DNA of 64,000 nucleotides from Larus michahellis. Lineage: Eukaryota > Chordata > Aves > Charadriiformes > Laridae. Made by a program: the position numbers and the translations under genes. The notes beneath the pieces were generated by a model. It made no database searches. It saw only the letters and a list, made by a program, of their open reading frames with translations, and was not told the DNA's origin. This document shows, piece after piece, positions 16,386 through 44,078 of this stretch. Location: NCBI RefSeq assembly GCF_964199755.1, contig NC_133913.1:5744201-5808200 (forward strand), in the 5' to 3' direction. How positions within the stretch are numbered: position 1 is the stretch's first letter; each line of letters begins with the position of its first letter.

Positions 16386-16402
16386 AGGGCAGGAGCACTC
16401 AG

Positions 16403-16870
16403 CACCCAAACCCCACAACGCCCATCGCTTCAGGCGCCCGGGGTGACCGACTGGCACCCAAACCCCACAACGCCCATCGCATCAGGCGCCCGGCGTGACC
16501 GACTGGCACCCAAACCCCACAACGTCCATCGCTTCAGGCGCCCGGGGTGACCGACTGGCACCCAAACCCCACAACGCCCATCGCATCAGGCGCCCGGGGT
16601 GACCGACTGGCACCCAAACCCCACAACGCCCATCGCTTCAGGCGCCCGGCATGACCGACTGGCACCCAAACCCCACAACGCCCATCGCTTCAGGCGCCCG
16701 GGGTGACCAACTGGCACCCAAACCCCACAACGCCCATCGCTTCAGGCGCCCGGCATGACCGACTGGCACCCAAACCCCACAACGCCCATCGCTTCAGGCG
16801 CCCGGCGTGACCGACTGGCACCCAAACCCCACAACGCCCATCGCTTCAGGCGCCCGGCGTGACCGACTGG
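16403..16870. repeat. 52-bp minisatellite, nine tandem copies
   Basis: Nine head-to-tail units of exactly 52 bp begin at 16403, 16455, 16507, 16559, 16611, 16663, 16715, 16767 and 16819. A tenth starts at 16871 and diverges after four bases. Each unit begins cacccaaaccccacaacgcc and ends gtgaccgactgg. Variation is confined to a few sites: cgctt versus cgcat, and ggggtg, ggcgtg or ggcatg before the accgactgg end. There is also one gtcc in copy 3 and one accaactgg in copy 6. The unit is GC-rich and sits in AT-rich intron. Since 52 is not a multiple of three, the open frames across it are not a repeat protein. Confidence 0.97.
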
Positions 16871-16872
16871 CA

Positions 16873-19168
16873 CCAGCCACCCCTCCACTACCCCAGCAAT
16901 GGAGTGACAGTCCCTAAAAAGAAAGAAGGCAGCCAAAATGTTTTGGTTAAAAACAAGACTCATTTTGACAATAAGCAGCCCCCCTTTAAGTCTCAAAAAA
17001 TGTAAGCCCTTAATGGAAAACATGTTTTCTATCAAGTGACTGGAAAATTAAGCAAAATATTCCCAATTATTTCAAAACTGGTCAACTTGCCTTCGGTTTC
17101 CTATCAAGCCCAGCTTGTATAGTTTTATACCAGGCTTAAAAAGGTTTACACGTATCTACTTTTTCTTGGCATTTCCTCAAAGGGGTCTATAAAGACTCAG
17201 AGAATTAGCTGCCAGAGCCTGAAGATGTCTAGCTTAGGAATGTCTGCATCCCTGAAAGCCAGGATGCACTATGGCCCAAAAAACAAGAACAAACGAAGAC
17301 AAGATTTCTATTGTTTGTTTTGCTAGAGACATAAATGCTACATTTAATAGGAAAAAAAAGGGAAACAAATATACTCCTTTTTATATACCCATGCCTGCGG
17401 GCATACACAAACATCGTTAGTGTTCTCTTCACCTAAAACAGGTCAGTACATAAACCACATAAAGCAAAGTTACTTTCTTACTGCGACACAGACGAAACTC
17501 AAAAAAGGAAACACTTTATTATCAAGAAGCATCGTCCACAAAGTTATACATCTAACCCTCAGTCTTATTTTAGAAAGTCTCCCTGGTAATTTGCCTGTGC
17601 TTTTGAAAAGCAAGTAATATGTTTTGAATTATAAGAGGTTACAGGGACATTTTTGTGGTAAATTTGGACTTTCGTTTGCAAAAAAAAAAAACCTTCAGTG
17701 CTACAGAAATCCTTTCGGAAATAACATTTTTTTGTCATTGCTAAGCACTTTTCAACAAAGTTTAATAGCTACCGTTCCAAGGAGCTGTTTACATCCAGCT
17801 TTAAAAGAATACTGGGGTACTTAGGTCCCTGCAAGCAAAAGGAAAAGCAGCACGGTGTCTTTCCGATCGTTTGAGAAGCAAACAAGAGAGAGTATATCCT
17901 CTGCAGTACGCAGGGGCAACAAGCTTTCTAAGCAAGTTCACTCACAGCCTCCTGCTGCTCAGGGTCTGGTATTCTGGGATTTTTCTGGAGGCCTAAGTTA
18001 TACTGAGACCTCTTTGAGTCTTCTTTCATTCGTTCCCCTGGTCTTCACACCCAGGATCAAGAAGGAACAAAACGCCAAATCAGCTGGTATTAAGAAGTGG
18101 AAGGCACTATTTCTAGCCTCGGAAGTTTATAAACTCAATATCCAGTTGCTTTATAAACAGTGCATGGGAAGAAAGGCCTTCAAACAACAGTAGCTCGATT
18201 TTCCTTTGAAGGTGGAACTTACTTTATCATTCATTCTTGTAAACAAAATAACCTATTTAGTTGACGTTTAGCAATATGAATAAAAGCAAAAGTTTTACTG
18301 TAAACATCTAAAAGATGTCTAGCCACATGAAAGCTTCATTGTGCTCTTGATAACCGTGATGTAAAGGCTTTTATAACCACCAGAGTTTTTGCAGGCTGAC
18401 ACACCAGATTTTACCACCTCAATATACCATAGAGAAGCTGTGCCAAAAGAAAGCCATGCTGTTCATACAGTGGGAAGAGAGATTTTTTGTTTTGTTTTAG
18501 TTTGTTTTTCTTTGCTATTCATTGTGAGACAGCCTTTGCTGACATCCAGTGAGCTGTTAAAATATGGGTTCTCATTGGTCTTTGGCTGTTTTGCTTTCTG
18601 CACAGAACCGTGCAGTAAATTGCTCGAGCCCCCTTTAGTTTCCCTACTGCGAGTTTGTCCTGGGCACCATAAATAAATACCCAGTATAATGATGAAGGCA
18701 CTGACCAGCCTGATGCTTATAATAGAAGACAGATATTAAAAGGGGACTTTTTCAGGAAGTTTCAGCTGGTGCTTCAAAGTATAATTTATTTGAGGGACAG
18801 CGATGTACACCTGCTCTACAGCAGAAAGAGACCGAAAACCTTTTCATCAGGAGCCCCACTCCAGAAGACTTATTCAAAGGTCGTCAGAAATTCCAACAAA
18901 ACACTGCTTAAGTTGGCTTGCTCTAAATAAAGTGTGCGAGATTGCATGTCTACAGGGAAAGACACAAAAATACAAACATAAAACATTATGCTTTGGAGAT
19001 GGAGTTAGATGCACTACCCTAAACTAAACATCACCTCTTGCAGCACATTATATACCACAGATTGCAGAGTCCTGCCACAAAGCTCCATTTTTTTTTTTAT
19101 TTTTTTTAATTTCCCAGGAAGATGTAGTGAGCCTTCAGGCTTCACAAATTAAGTTACGTCAACCTTAA
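16873..19168. other. Unique intronic sequence, no gene seen
   Basis: The DNA is AT-rich, with several short A or T runs (for example the A run near 17680). No open frame shows a recognisable domain. No repeat longer than about 20 bp was seen. Confidence 0.45.
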
Positions 19169-24500: not shown

Positions 24501-27500
24501 ACACCACATCCTCAGACTCAGGCGGGCTGGGATGACCAGGAGCTATCTGAGCAGCAATACAGCCTTCCACATCGTGTTTCATGCTGGAACTAGTCAAAAA
24601 AAGAGGAAAAGAACCCAAAATTCTTTTAACGATCATTACACCTTACCGTGTGCTTTCACAGTCTTCCTTTCATGCGTCCTTGAATTCTTTAATAACAGTG
24701 ACAAAGATCTATTATGTTCCCAGGAGGGGATTTGCACAATGCTTATGAAAAATGAGCAACTCGCCAGAAATCAGGAAAAGATGAGTCAAGTAGCACCTGC
24801 TCACGAGTTAGATGTGAGAACAGGAAGACCTTGAGCACACAGCTCATACGGGACTACCCCAAACGCTACCCTGCATTGCAATACATCATTGTCTACTTTC
24901 CACTTACAGTTATTAAGAGGCATTGGGTTTATCCACAGGCGGGCCCCCACATCACCTCACCGCCCGGCACGGCGGGGATCACCTCTTACTCCCCTGCAAA
25001 GCGTTCGAGACCTTGCGAGGAGAAGCCAGTCTGAAGTTATTCCTGAAGTAATCACTAAAACAGCAGAACAGATAATTCAAGAAATCAAGCTACCACTTTG
25101 CATGCCGTAAATACCATTTTTAAAACTCTGAGTTTTGATCTGTTTATCGAGATAAATGCTAGTTGTACAGCACAGTAAAATGAGTTGTCTTGGCAGGATA
25201 ATACAAGAAATCATATATAAAATGGAATACTTCATACACGTGAAAAATAACCTCTCGCTCTCTTCCTTACAAGGAAGTAAATTAAAAATGGTAACTTTGA
25301 TCATTTGAAATTTTCATTATGGCGTGATGAAAAATAAGCCGACGTACAGTTGCGTGTTTCTCTCATGCAGAAGTTAACGCCGCAAGTTTCACCTACGCCA
25401 CAATTTCTGCAAAACGTTAGCAACTCCTGCAAGACCGCTGCTCCCTTTCCACGAGCACCAGCTCGCTCCACCTGCTGTGGAATAGTCACAGTCACGTTAA
25501 GTCAAAACCACCCACTGAAATGCAAGTATTTTACCAAGTCCAAAGCGGGACGTTTTCCCTTAGATTACAGGCGAGTAACAGTCAGAGTACAGCTAAATAC
25601 GAGCCCTTGATTGCCAGTGAGGGGACCTGAGAGCTGTTTGACATTAAAAAGATTCCCTGTTTTAAGGAGTCTTTCAATTAATCTCACATCCTGTGATAGG
25701 AACTGAAATGCCAACTACTACTGCAGTAATCAACCTGCCCATAAAGGTTAACGGGGAGCTGATTAAAGGGAATGCCAGACTATCTGCTCAAGTGCAAATT
25801 GCTCAAATACGGCTGTTTATAATAATTCATACTTACAATCACTTAAGGAACAACTGTCTCTTAAAGCTTTGGAGGTTTTCTGTAAAGAAACAAAGCTAGC
25901 TCCTGAATCCACACTAACTGTTCCAATAGTCCTGCTTTTTTTTTTTTTTAAATTATTCTGATGACTAAGAATCACAACCAGACACTGGTACGAAGCCCAC
26001 TCAGAACTAAGGAATTCAAGGACCGGATGACTTTTATTTACAATTAATGTGTAACATGCAGTGCCTGCTTGAGTGTCCGCGTCAAATGGCCAGCTTATTA
26101 AGCAGTTGCAAGACATGGCCGTGAAAAAACACTAACACTATGATATCCTTGCTGAATCACTACACAAAGCTACAAACAACAGGGCATGAAGCGTAGGGCT
26201 TGGGAAATGAGGTAGTAAATTCACACTGCATCCGTCCACCTACCCAAGCGGGTATTCACCTCGACAATCATACCAGCCACACTAATCCAGCCCATGTCAA
26301 CACCACTAAATTCAAATATTAGAGTAATGAAAAGTGCAACTTCACCATTTCTCTTTTTCCCACTAGAGACATCCTTGGGGAAATATCCTTGCATGCACCG
26401 AAACTGGTATGATTTCAATTCCACCCACATCTGGGCTCACTTGGGAACTAAATCCAGCACAACCCGTCTTGGGTCAGCCAGTGACCCCGAACAAAAATAG
26501 CTCTGGCAGAAAGCTGGATTTATGGAATAGGGTGGAGCCCATCCAAGTGTAAACCAAACGAACCCGTCACTTGAAGTTAATGATGGAGAAGCAACAATTT
26601 CTCCATTCTGCTCAGCACGTGACGAGCACAAAGGCGACTCGTGCCACCAACGCAACGTGACAAAACACAACGTGACATAATCAACCCTTGAACAGGTCAG
26701 AATCTCGGGTGTAATTTGGGTCTGACACCATTTAAAATGTATCAGCAGCAGGAGTTAATTACTGTCTCCAAAGCAGTAAAAATAAGAGAAGCAAGTGTTG
26801 CTTGAGACTTGTAATAACACCAGGAGCGAAGCTGGGCGAGCAGGCCAGGGCCACGGCTCTACCAGCGACGTCAATCAGGGCTTAGCAGAGTTTAGCAATT
26901 TTACCGAAAAGCCACACTTCTGGTACATTCAGATTCACTTTCCCAAATGTCCCAGCACAGACAAACCTAAAGTCAGGGGATGACTGCACCAAGGTTAGAA
27001 AAATTAACCACATTAATTTTTTTTAACAAAAGATTATGCTGCCCACAGCACAGACACCAGACAACTTAGAAGTGCAGACAGAACTTTGCCTGCAAACTGC
27101 AGATTACGGCCAAAGTAACACATGCGTTCTCGAGCAAAAGAAACCAGAGTTTGAATCGGTGTCACAAGGAGAGGCCTGGTTTTGAGTACCAGTGACCAAG
27201 GTACCGGAGTTAAAGGGTCACCTGATGATGTATTAGATAGCGCAGGGATGTCCGACAACACCCTTCGGCAGGATCAGCATGCAAAATTAGCAAAGTCTAC
27301 CAGTGCAGGCACCTCTCAATTAACTAATTTGATTCCTAAACGCAACCCATATGCTACATTCATTTTTAAGTTACCTAACAATCCATTTCCAAAACTTCAT
27401 TTCGATTTCTAGTACACATTAACCAAACAATAAAAGCCCCAAGAACAAACTGTTACATGCAAGTTTCCTGCTAGTTACAATGACTTTGTTTGTAAACCCT

Positions 27501-28600: not shown

Positions 28601-29004
28601 GGTGCTTCCCTGAGAGCGCACCGGGGCTCACTTGGCTCTCTGAAACGTCCCAATTTTATACAAAACGCCCCTCTTTGGTACTGGGATACTCTGCCGTGCT
28701 GTCCGGCCCCCTCACAGCGAGGGCCGGGGAGGGGGGAGCCGAGGCCAGGCGTGCTGAGGGGGCGACCGTCCCCTCAGCTCCGGGCCGCTTCACCTCACTA
28801 AGCCGGCAGCGCGCAGCCCCCTCCCCACACCCCAACCTCATCCGCGACGGGGGGGAGAAGCGCGGGGGAGAAGCGGGAAGACCCCCCCCCCCTCACACGC
28901 CCTGAGGCGATGCGGGATGGGGGGCCGTGTTCCCACCGCCTTTCCCCGCTCCTCGCGCCGCTCCCTCCCCTCAACCCACCCCGCCGCCCCCCTTCAGCGC
29001 TCAC

Positions 29005-29099
29005 CGCAGCCGGAGGTTCGCCATGAACTCGGGCATGGTGACGGCGTCCATCAGCACGAAGTCGGCTTTGCCGAACTCCAGGCTCTCCCGCTCCGCCAT
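29005..29099 (-). CDS. MYO1D: Unconventional myosin-Id, first coding exon (partial gene)
   Basis: This is the first coding exon of a class I (monomeric, membrane-binding, actin-based) myosin. It encodes 31 complete residues plus two bases of a 32nd arginine codon. The peptide starts [20 protein letters not shown] and continues [11 protein letters not shown](R). I recognise this as the extreme N-terminus of the myosin-Id motor domain, which differs from the human protein I remember at only a few positions. The myosin-Ig start is clearly different. The start sits in an ideal Kozak context (gccgccATGg). The exon ends at a canonical donor, CG|GTGAGC, reading leftward, so intron 1 is phase 2. The ATP-binding P-loop, actin-binding loops, IQ motifs and tail must lie beyond the left edge. 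The exon is inside a CpG island, as expected for a promoter-proximal exon. The identification is confident; the transcription start is not resolved. Confidence 0.9.
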
Positions 29100-29246: not shown

Positions 29247-29349
29247 GGGCGGCGCCCCCTGCGGGACGGCGGGGAGAACGCACCCCCCCCCCCCGGCGCC
29301 AGCCGCCGGGGGGGTGAAAGGGCGCCCTCTGCCGGCGAGAGGGGTGTAC

Positions 29350-30335
29350 TGCGACCGGGGGAACCCCGGGGGGGGGCATACTGTGTCTGGGGGAGCCCCA
29401 TAGCCCGGGGGGGGGGGGGGGGGCGCATCCTGAAATTGGGGGGACACCCCCGCCGCCCAGCACGGGGGACTGCGTCCTGAAACGGGGGGAACCCCACTAG
29501 TACGGGGGGGCCGCATCCTGCACCCGGGGGACCCCCCCACCACCACCAGCAAGGGGGGGGCACAACCTGCGTCTGGGGGACCCCTATAGCACGGGGGGGG
29601 GGGGGGCTGCATTCTGAAACTGGGGAGAACCCACCCAGCAGCGCGGGTGGGGGGGGGGGGGGAGGCGCATCCTGCATCTGGGGGAACCCCCCCCAAAGAC
29701 GGGGGGGCCGCAGCCTGCACCCGGTGGACCCCCATAGCACGGGGGGTGCATCCTGCACGCAGGGGAACCCCGCTACTACGGGGGGGGGGGCCGCATCCCG
29801 CACCGGGGAGACCCCCCCCCCCCACCACCACCACCAGCACGGGGGGCCACATCCTGAAATTGGGGGAACCCCCCCAAGCACGGGGGGGGCCACATCCTGC
29901 ATCTGGGGAGCCCTATAGCGGGGGGGGGGGGGGGGGGGAGGGAGGGGTCGCATCCTGCACCCGGTGGACCCTCATAGTACGGGGGTCCATAACCTGCACC
30001 AGGGGGACACCCCCCCAGCATGAGGGGCCGCATCCTGCAACTGGGGGGAACACCCCGAAGCGGGGGGGGGGGGGGGCGCAGCCTGCACCCAGGGGACCCC
30101 CATAGCACGGGGGCCGCATCCTGCACGCAGGGGAACCCCACTAGTATGGGGGGGGGCACATCCTGCACCCGGGAGACACCCCCCACCACCACCAGCGCAG
30201 GGGCCCGCATCCTGCACCTGGGGGAACCCCCCAGCAAGGGGGGGCTGCATTCTGCTCCTCATGGGAACCCCACAGGGACGGGGGGGGGGGGACACAGGCA
30301 TCCTGCACCCAGGGGGCAGCCAGGGGACAGCCAGG
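29350..30335. repeat. G/C-run minisatellite with higher-order repeat
   Basis: About twenty degenerate units of roughly 40-55 bp follow one another. Each has a core like catcctgcaccc, then a G run, a C run, an element such as atagcac or accaccaccagca, and a second G run. Units of the same type recur in order. The gcagcctgcaccc...catagcac unit begins at 29710 and again at 30078. The next unit (catcctgcacgcaggggaac) begins at 29749 and at 30117. Both give a spacing of 368 bp, so there is a higher-order repeat. Runs of more than ten G or C are common, and both strands could form G-quadruplex or i-motif structures. Run lengths are prone to sequencing error. Confidence 0.9.
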
Positions 30336-30620
30336 GGACACCCAGCCACCCCGGGACTTCACCAGGCAGGGGCAGATCCTGCAGCTGGGGACCCCCCTCC
30401 AGGACCCCACCGGGCAGGGCCAGATCCTGCAAGCCAAGGCAACCCCCCCCCCCCTCCAGGATCCCACCAGGCACCTGGGGACACACACACCCTCCCCCCC
30501 CCCCCGCCTCCATCCCAGGCGGGGCCAGATCCTGCACCCAGGGGACACCCACCCCCCCAGATCCTGCCCCCAGCACCCCCGGGTGCCCTCCCGCACCCCG
30601 CTCGCTCCGGCGCTTACAGA
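30336..30620. repeat. Second C-rich tandem repeat array
   Basis: Four or so degenerate copies with a core like ggcaggg(g)ccagatcctgca separated by C-rich stretches continue directly from the previous array. They differ in having cagatcctgca instead of gcatcctgca, so they are probably an older or diverged branch of the same repeat. Confidence 0.75.
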
Positions 30621-31186: not shown

Positions 31187-31204
31187 ATTTGCAACGATGC
31201 TAAT
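31187..31204 (+). promoter_or_regulatory. Paired octamer-like elements upstream of the H2B variant
   Basis: ATTTGCAA (31187-31194) matches seven of eight bases of the ATTTGCAT octamer typical of H2B promoters. ATGCTAAT (31197-31204) matches seven of eight of its complement. They lie two bases apart and about 125-140 bp before the start codon, a typical octamer distance for H2B genes. No convincing TATA or CCAAT box is seen. Seven-of-eight matches can occur by chance. Confidence 0.35.
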
Positions 31205-31328: not shown

Positions 31329-32001
31329 ATGATGGACCCCCACGCCCCCGTCCCGCCGAGGAGGAAGGCAGCGGCTGGACACGCCTGGCAGAGCCTCCTC
31401 TGCCTCCGTCCCCGCAGGCAGAAGAAGAAGGTGGCTTATTCCACCTACATCCACAAGCTCCTAAACCAGGTACGTCCAGACTGGGCTTGGGTCACCCCAA
31501 CCTTGGGTCACCCCAACCTTGGGTCACCCCCCTGTTTGCCAAGCTCAGCTTGGTCATCCATGTATCCAAGCTTGACGCAGCCAGCTTCTACCCAAGCTTG
31601 GATGCTCATGCGTTAGCTGAATCTGGAGGTTTTTGACTTAAATTGAAGGTGTGGGGGCTGGGGCTGGGGGGGGATGTCTCTGCCTGACCCACACCTGCAG
31701 GCAGCTAGCTCCCCCAGCTGTCCTGCCCTACAGATGGTTGCTCTCCTTGTAGACGTGGTCTACTGGAGCCTCCTGCCTGGCGGCTGCCGCCCTGGCCTGG
31801 CTGGGCAGCCCCCGGCTGCTCGGGGACGTGGCGCTGGAGGCCACCCGGCTGTCCCGCTGCGCCAGAAGAAGCCACCTCAGCCACCGCGAGGTCCTGCTGG
31901 CCATGAAGCTGGTGCTGCTGCGTGAGCTCTCCAAGCCTCCTCCGGGATCCTCCAGCTGCGAGCTGCTGCCCAAGGGACCCAGCGAGACGGGACAGTCTTA
32001 A
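31329..32001 (+). CDS. Divergent histone H2B variant, two exons
   Basis: Exon 1 is 31329-31469 and exon 2 is 31753-32001, giving 129 residues. The donor is CAG|GTACGT; the acceptor is CTCTCCTTGTAG, phase 0. Residues 1-33 are a short basic tail with RPRRQKKK just before the fold. Helix 1 reads AYSTYIHKLLNQ against YSIYVYKVLKQ of H2B. The intron falls right after that glutamine. Exon 2 then aligns without any gap: 28 residues separate this Q from the next EATRL, exactly as in H2B (EASRL). Helix 2 is otherwise rewritten and alanine/leucine-rich. Loop 2 and helix 3 keep SHREVLLAMKLVLLRELSK against TSREIQTAVRLLLPGELAK, including both acidic-patch glutamates. The C-terminal helix is replaced by a serine/proline-rich end, so the usual ubiquitinated lysine region is missing. 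Either ATG 31329 or 31332 could be used. An expected role is as an H2A partner in specialised, perhaps germline, nucleosomes; this is inference. A recently decayed copy is less likely given intact frame and splice sites. Confidence 0.8.
31486..31531. repeat. 16-bp tandem repeat in the H2B-variant intron
   Basis: Almost three copies of cttgggtcaccccaac follow one another from 31486, 16 bp downstream of the exon 1 donor. They occupy about a sixth of the 283-bp intron. Confidence 0.9.
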
Positions 32002-40598: not shown

Positions 40599-41113
40599 CA
40601 GAATCCCAGCCTGGCCGGGGTGGGAAGGGCCCTCTGGAGATCATCCCCTCCAACCCCCGGCCAGAGCAGGGTCACCCAGAGCAGGTGGCACAGGAACGCG
40701 GCCAGGCGGGGTTGGAATGTCTCCAGAGACGGAGACTCCCCCACCTCTCTGGGCAGCCTGTGCCAGGGCTCTGCCACCCTCACAGCAAAGAAGATTTTCC
40801 TCATGCCAAGATGGAATTTCCCGTGTTCCAGCTTGTGTCCGTTGCCCCTTGTCCTGTCCCCGGGCACCACTGAGAAGAGCCTGGCCCCATCCTCCTGACA
40901 CCATCCCTGTAGCTCTTGCTGAGCATTGATGAGATCCCCTCTCAGTCTGCTCTTCTCCAGCTGAACAGCCCCAGGTCCTTCAGCCTTTCCCCAGCGCAGA
41001 GATGCTCCGTCCCCTCAGCATCTCCGTAGCCCCCGCTGGACTCTCTCCAGCAGTTCCCCATCCTTGAACTGGGGAGCCCAGAACTGGACACAGTAGTCTG
41101 GACTTGTCTTGAC
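40599..41113 (-). mobile_element. CR1 LINE, 5'-truncated, about 515 bp
   Basis: This reverse CR1 copy begins with gaatcccagaatcccagcct (terminal repeats mutated to gaatccca), then the gatcatcccctccaaccccc block. It ends near ggacacagtagtctggac. It is nearly identical over its left half to the copies at 9.6 and 43.7 kb. Confidence 0.92.
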
Positions 41114-43690: not shown

Positions 43691-44078
43691 GAGAGCCCTG
43701 GGGCTGTTCAGCTGGAGAAGAGCAGGCTGAGGGGGGATCTCATCAATGCTCAGCGATAGCTGACGGGCCGGGGGCAAGAGGATGGGGCCAGACTCTTCTC
43801 AGTGGTGCCAGGACAAGGGGTAACGGGCACAAACTGGAACATGAGAAGTTCCATCTCAACAGGAGGAGGAACTTCTTTGCTGTGAGGGTGGCAGAGCCCT
43901 GGCACAGGCTGCCCAGAGAGGTGGGGGAGTCTCCGTCTCTGGAGACATTCCAACCCCGCCTGGCCGCGTTCCTGTGCCACCTGCTCTGGGTGACCCTGCT
44001 CTGGCCGGGGGTTGGAGGGGATGATCTCCAGAGGGCCCTTCCCACCCCGGCCAGGCTGGGATTCTGTGATTCTGTGGC
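43691..44078 (+). mobile_element. CR1 LINE, 5'-truncated, about 390 bp
   Basis: This forward copy starts at gttgagagccctggggctgt, continues with the polymerase tail and ends with gggattctgtgattctgtgg. It is the same subfamily as the 40.6 kb copy, in opposite orientation. Confidence 0.93.

Follow-up and report, generated by a model that had tools for sequence, protein, structure and literature searches.

The 64,000-nucleotide stretch of DNA analysed here (the window; gull Larus michahellis, NC_133913.1, positions 5,744,201 to 5,808,200 of the forward strand) carries an intron-bearing, strongly diverged histone H2B gene that stands head to head with exon 1 of MYO1D, about 2.2 kb away, as the initial annotation had proposed. 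Its two exons (Table 1) join into an open frame for an H2B-like protein of 129 residues. These coordinates and the spliced product were borne out by the splice sites (donor CAG/GTACGT and acceptor TTGTAG/ACG, the slash marking the exon boundary), by the frame, which runs to a TAA stop at 31999-32001, and by the point at which an annotated kiwi protein breaks when laid on the gull DNA; the exons are indeed read in different frames, as had been claimed. A second in-frame ATG follows at 31332, and most orthologues begin at the position equivalent to it. The poly(A) signal lies 25 nt past the stop codon and no histone 3' stem-loop was matched in an Rfam scan of the window, in agreement with the polyadenylated type of gene suggested earlier.

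Table 1. The H2B gene of the gull and the features found around it in the window.
Feature	Position	Strand	Description and basis
Coding exon 1	31329-31469	+	Start ATG, N-terminal tail, basic stretch, helix 1 of the histone fold
Intron	31470-31752	+	283 nt, phase 0, GT...AG, directly after helix 1 (KLLNQ/TW)
Coding exon 2	31753-32001	+	Loop 1, helix 2 with inserted residue, loop 2, helix 3, non-alphaC tail, TAA
Polyadenylation signal AATAAA	32026-32031	+	Sequence feature
Putative promoter element	31187-31204	+	H2B octamer ATTTGCAT matched twice at 7/8, with a spacing of 10 bp; motif scan
MYO1D, first coding exon	29004-29099	-	32 codons; tblastn, 29/32 identical, E 8e-12
G-rich minisatellite	29334-30551		Separates MYO1D exon 1 from the histone gene and contains long G runs; repeat families D1-D12, tandem arrays

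A chance joining of two open frames is unlikely. When a replication-coupled H2B was searched against the window with tblastn, the two exons were the top matches (expectation values, E, of 3e-4 and 6e-4, with the third at 0.76), in order and 283 nt apart, and the kiwi protein breaks on the gull exons exactly at residues 46/47 (E 9e-14 and 1e-28). We read the same splice point in four exon-1 read-through pieces of other species (P0029, P0030, P0033, and P0034) and in six exon-2 read-through pieces (P0022-P0026 and P0032). 

The gull protein shares with replication-coupled H2B the order of the histone fold, residues of helices 1 and 3, and the RE(L/V) and EL.K motifs, and it keeps the basic stretch and residues E76, R79, R86, R92, and E105. 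It differs in the intron, the poly(A) signal, the missing stem-loop match, the absent alphaC helix, and a fold identity of only 22/65 (34%), with 6/13 positions identical in helix 1, 7/30 in helix 2, and 5/12 in helix 3. The gap-free alignment to H2B reported initially holds only as net length; at the residue level the gull protein is a residue short in loop 1 and carries an additional one in helix 2, and the two changes cancel. Against single solved H2B chains it scored E 3e-8 or weaker in phmmer, most matches lying at about 1e-7 to 2e-6; a 20-bird profile scored 4e-14 or weaker, and a turtle relative reached 1e-21 against H2B. The gull protein gave no Pfam match at all, those of kiwi and emu fall below the cut-off of Pfam PF00125, and the turtle protein passes (29.2 bits vs the cut-off of 26.4).

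Relatives are widespread among birds. The joined gull protein is identical to the NCBI 'histone H2B-like' model of Chroicocephalus ridibundus (Laridae, Charadriiformes), and another 20 bird species, kiwi and emu among them, yielded relatives. NCBI's automatic models already include the same bird proteins, under labels (such as 'histone H2B-like' and 'histone H2B.2, sperm-like') that link the genes neither to one another nor to H2B.N, the mammalian variant discussed below. Candidates were drawn by shared exact 5-residue words, a procedure that can miss distant orthologues. At E 1 or better, the first search retained 30 of 354 candidate proteins (21 bird-named and nine further pieces). A profile was then built from 20 of these birds, the manakin model P0016, with its long extra N-terminus, being the one of the 21 excluded. 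It retained 40 of 7994 scored candidates at the same threshold; new among them were a protein of the turtle Mauremys mutica (P0031, with 13 member sequences) at 1.8e-24, pieces resembling turtle or bird sequences, and some weak matches in fishes. With a profile of turtle, kiwi, and emu, 32 of 1102 candidates passed E 0.001; those added were two bird fragments, one of them from Cyanoderma ruficeps, and four H2Bs that to our reading resemble slime-mould or protist ones. Among the shared-word and profile matches none is named as mammalian H2B.N, and neither chicken nor duck is represented; as the candidates depend on shared exact words, these absences are weak evidence.

The turtle protein is close to those of birds. 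Gull and turtle agree at 35/66 fold positions, above the 22/65 of gull and replication-coupled H2B, and have in common the tail motif CLR.., the helix 2 insertion, and VALEA(A/T)RLS. In a tree of 15 sequences, including one replication-coupled H2B stretch, turtle and birds formed a clade with support of 98.5/100 against that H2B and the fish sequences. The fish sequences themselves (P0035-P0039) are short H2B-like proteins of elopomorphs that lack alphaC and match the bird profile at E 1.7e-3 to 0.12. We do not count them as relatives of the bird gene, because in the tree they do not group with turtle and birds at good support (44.3/81); they are possibly another fish H2B variant. One catfish record, named AP-1 sigma-2 (P0040), is H2B-like over its first 80 residues and is probably two genes fused in the model.

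Two structural traits stand out. The first is a one-residue insertion in helix 2, common to turtle and birds and usually accompanied by proline: in the aligned birds the inserted region mostly reads (L/G)(G/N/D)(S/N)P, with S for P in hummingbird P0011. In an AlphaFold model the gull protein has helices at residues 55-64, 67-83, and 91-107 (mean predicted local distance difference test score, pLDDT, 66.0; predicted template modelling score 0.46), with poor confidence for helix 1 and the first parts of helix 2 (59-63) and good confidence for the remainder (81-89). The turtle model likewise splits helix 2, into 60-70 and 75-90, at a mean pLDDT of 66.2. Since these are weak single-chain models of a dimeric protein, folded without the H2A partner and without a normal H2B as control, we treat the split as a lead only; searches of fold databases with the models recovered no clear histone match. 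The second trait is the fate of alphaC. No helix extends beyond residue 107 in the gull model, and E105, L106, and K108 are kept and E113 and K116 are not, in what we take to be the standard numbering. In gull and kiwi the K120 column holds a lysine, but the tail around it is not helical and is prone to gaps. C-termini vary among birds, and all seven proteins that we presume to be passerine end at KPPPG plus one residue. The turtle, by contrast, keeps alphaC, including the KAVTK motif of normal alphaC, in a single modelled helix (98-128) that also comprises helix 3. If the turtle, bird, and mammal genes are orthologous, alphaC has been lost at least twice.

The initial annotation had noted the MYO1D neighbour without recognising the place as that of mammalian H2B.N. 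In the sections of Raman et al. 2022 (PMC8857922) that deal with it, H2B.N contains an intron, mostly lacks alphaC, is expressed in oocytes, is less than 50% identical in the fold to replication-coupled H2B, and is present in platypus and marsupials and not in chicken, for which reason it is called a mammalian invention. Seal et al. 2022 (PMC9526256) give human H2BN1 two exons, one overlapping MYO1D-DT, and describe the gene as restricted to mammals. It lies at 17q11.2, with its intron inside the histone fold. Searches of open-licence PMC papers gave no report of H2B.N or H2BN1 outside mammals. The gull gene shares with H2B.N its site beside MYO1D, a two-exon structure with the break inside the histone fold, a fold identity below 50%, and the lack of a normal alphaC helix; it differs in that H2B.N has been described in mammals alone, and in that the sauropsid proteins carry an extra helix 2 residue and the turtle retains alphaC. 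The comparison, that of the introns included, is with published descriptions rather than residue by residue. Given that the site, the gene structure, the divergence, and the missing alphaC all match H2B.N, we believe that the gull gene is likely to be the bird H2B.N, a replication-independent H2B variant that has stood beside MYO1D since at least the amniote ancestor.

The other intron-bearing candidate, H2B.K, does not fit. H2B.K (H2BK1) of bony vertebrates is reported to be expressed in the ovary, chicken included, and to carry polyglutamine in its N-terminal tail, according to the passages on it in PMC8857922. The human protein differs from replication-coupled H2B by 16 substitutions in the fold. 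In human the gene adjoins ABCF2 according to PMC9526256. Although H2B.K shares with the gull gene an intron inside the histone fold, its fold is near replication-coupled H2B, unlike the gull's, the translated gull protein contains no polyglutamine stretch, and the neighbour found is MYO1D (ABCF2 itself was not searched for).

If the gull gene works as its mammalian counterpart is described to, it would be transcribed in oocytes from its own promoter some 2 kb from MYO1D, and its sequence features suggest that splicing and polyadenylation would be independent of replication. A germline-specific role may be inferred by analogy with mammalian H2B.N. The protein would pair with H2A through the kept helix 1, end of helix 2, and helix 3 and enter maternal chromatin, where its nucleosomes would lack the H2B half of the acidic patch contributed by alphaC (E113) and the usual context of the K120 ubiquitin site; the changes in helix 2 would make the particle less stable. 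More tentatively, we propose an oocyte H2B.N of amniote age in which the extra sauropsid residue, usually proline, breaks helix 2 and alphaC was lost independently in birds and mammals. Were this true, the repeated loss would mean that maternal chromatin, or a complex with H2A, has been selected to lack what H2B contributes to the acidic patch and to the K120 ubiquitin platform.

If the orthology holds, H2B.N predates the split of mammals and sauropsids, against a published mammalian origin about 177 million years ago, and is probably much older than thought. The chicken, the sole non-mammalian outgroup examined at this place in the main survey, would then have misled because its lineage lost the gene or because the assembly has a gap there. 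A maternal histone that cannot be studied in the mouse, which has lost the gene, could then be compared across birds and turtles, with the turtle form showing the variant before loss of alphaC.

The main uncertainty of this explanation is that the protein may work outside nucleosomes, as H2B.L does in the subacrosome of sperm; a storage factor of the oocyte or a chaperone of H2A would be examples. The split of helix 2 in the gull and turtle models, the lost alphaC, and the weak similarity in the DNA-contact loops would suit such a role, and the discussion of mammalian H2B.N in Raman et al. (PMC8857922) raises the same idea. However, the basic stretch and the fold residues named above are kept, and the models are of low confidence and lack the H2A partner; we regard this role as possible but doubtful.

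It is improbable that the gull gene belongs to a separate sauropsid H2B variant, a new class rather than an orthologue, that settled near MYO1D independently. Such an origin would explain why no mammalian relative was recovered, why the helix 2 insertion goes unmentioned for mammals in the passages on H2B.N, and why chicken is reported as empty at the MYO1D place in that part of PMC8857922. Yet a search based on exact 5-residue words can miss distant orthologues, and two independent intron-bearing H2B genes beside MYO1D would be a strong coincidence.

The bird gene appears to be under selection as a protein. Frameshifts in relatives, which had been raised earlier as the sign of a false gene, did not appear: the frame is intact in all 21 named birds, with length changes in-frame only. 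The alignment of these birds has 107 core columns, of which 24 do not vary; 17 of these fall among the 41 columns of residues 68-108 (end of helix 2 and helix 3) and 7 among the other 66 (Fisher 3e-4). In 200 runs of a neutral simulation, with a protein tree from the same data, stops forbidden, and a uniform mutation model, invariant columns averaged 11.3 (standard deviation 3.2) with a maximum of 22, at a slightly higher mean identity than observed (0.785 vs 0.766), and a mean of 10.7 stop-making mutations was rejected per run. Allowing rates to vary among sites raised the fit (LG, -1845.6 to -1814.3 with LG+G; JTT, -1754.4 to -1731.9). Given the uniform mutation model, the use of the same data for the tree, and the bias that comes with sampling annotated proteins, we consider the evidence that the second half of the histone fold is constrained at the protein level to be moderate, and the constraint rather than decay claimed initially holds to that extent. 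A decaying pseudogene, open in the gull by chance, would account for the fast change, the divergent helix 2, the absent alphaC, the varied C-termini, and the lack of a Pfam match, and broken copies would not have been annotated as proteins, but the intact frames, the kept splice sites, and the simulation make it very unlikely.

The octamer pair upstream of the gene lies about 130 bp before the ATG and overlaps a TAATTA homeobox core. The window has 57 octamer sites, and three pairs of them lie this close together, the present one included; two 7/8 sites were observed here against 0.22 expected per 249 bp, and we take ATTTGCAT to be the H2B promoter octamer. In P0029, an egret-like contig, the read-through frame would accommodate ATGCTAATTAA. 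On the other side, tblastn with a human MYO1D sequence found only the first coding exon, and no later motor exon was seen in a motif scan of the window. The G-rich minisatellite between the two genes may explain absent or broken assemblies of the MYO1D/H2B place, as G-rich sequence of minisatellite type tends to drop out of short-read assemblies. Farther out on the MYO1D side lies a 52-bp minisatellite in nine copies (16402-16874). ARAGORN called a tRNA-Ser(cga) at 24950-25040 on the minus strand that has no Rfam tRNA match and is probably false. Finally, the same peptide is encoded at 40946-40960 and 43712-43726 on opposite strands, and the two copies are probably remnants of an interspersed repeat.
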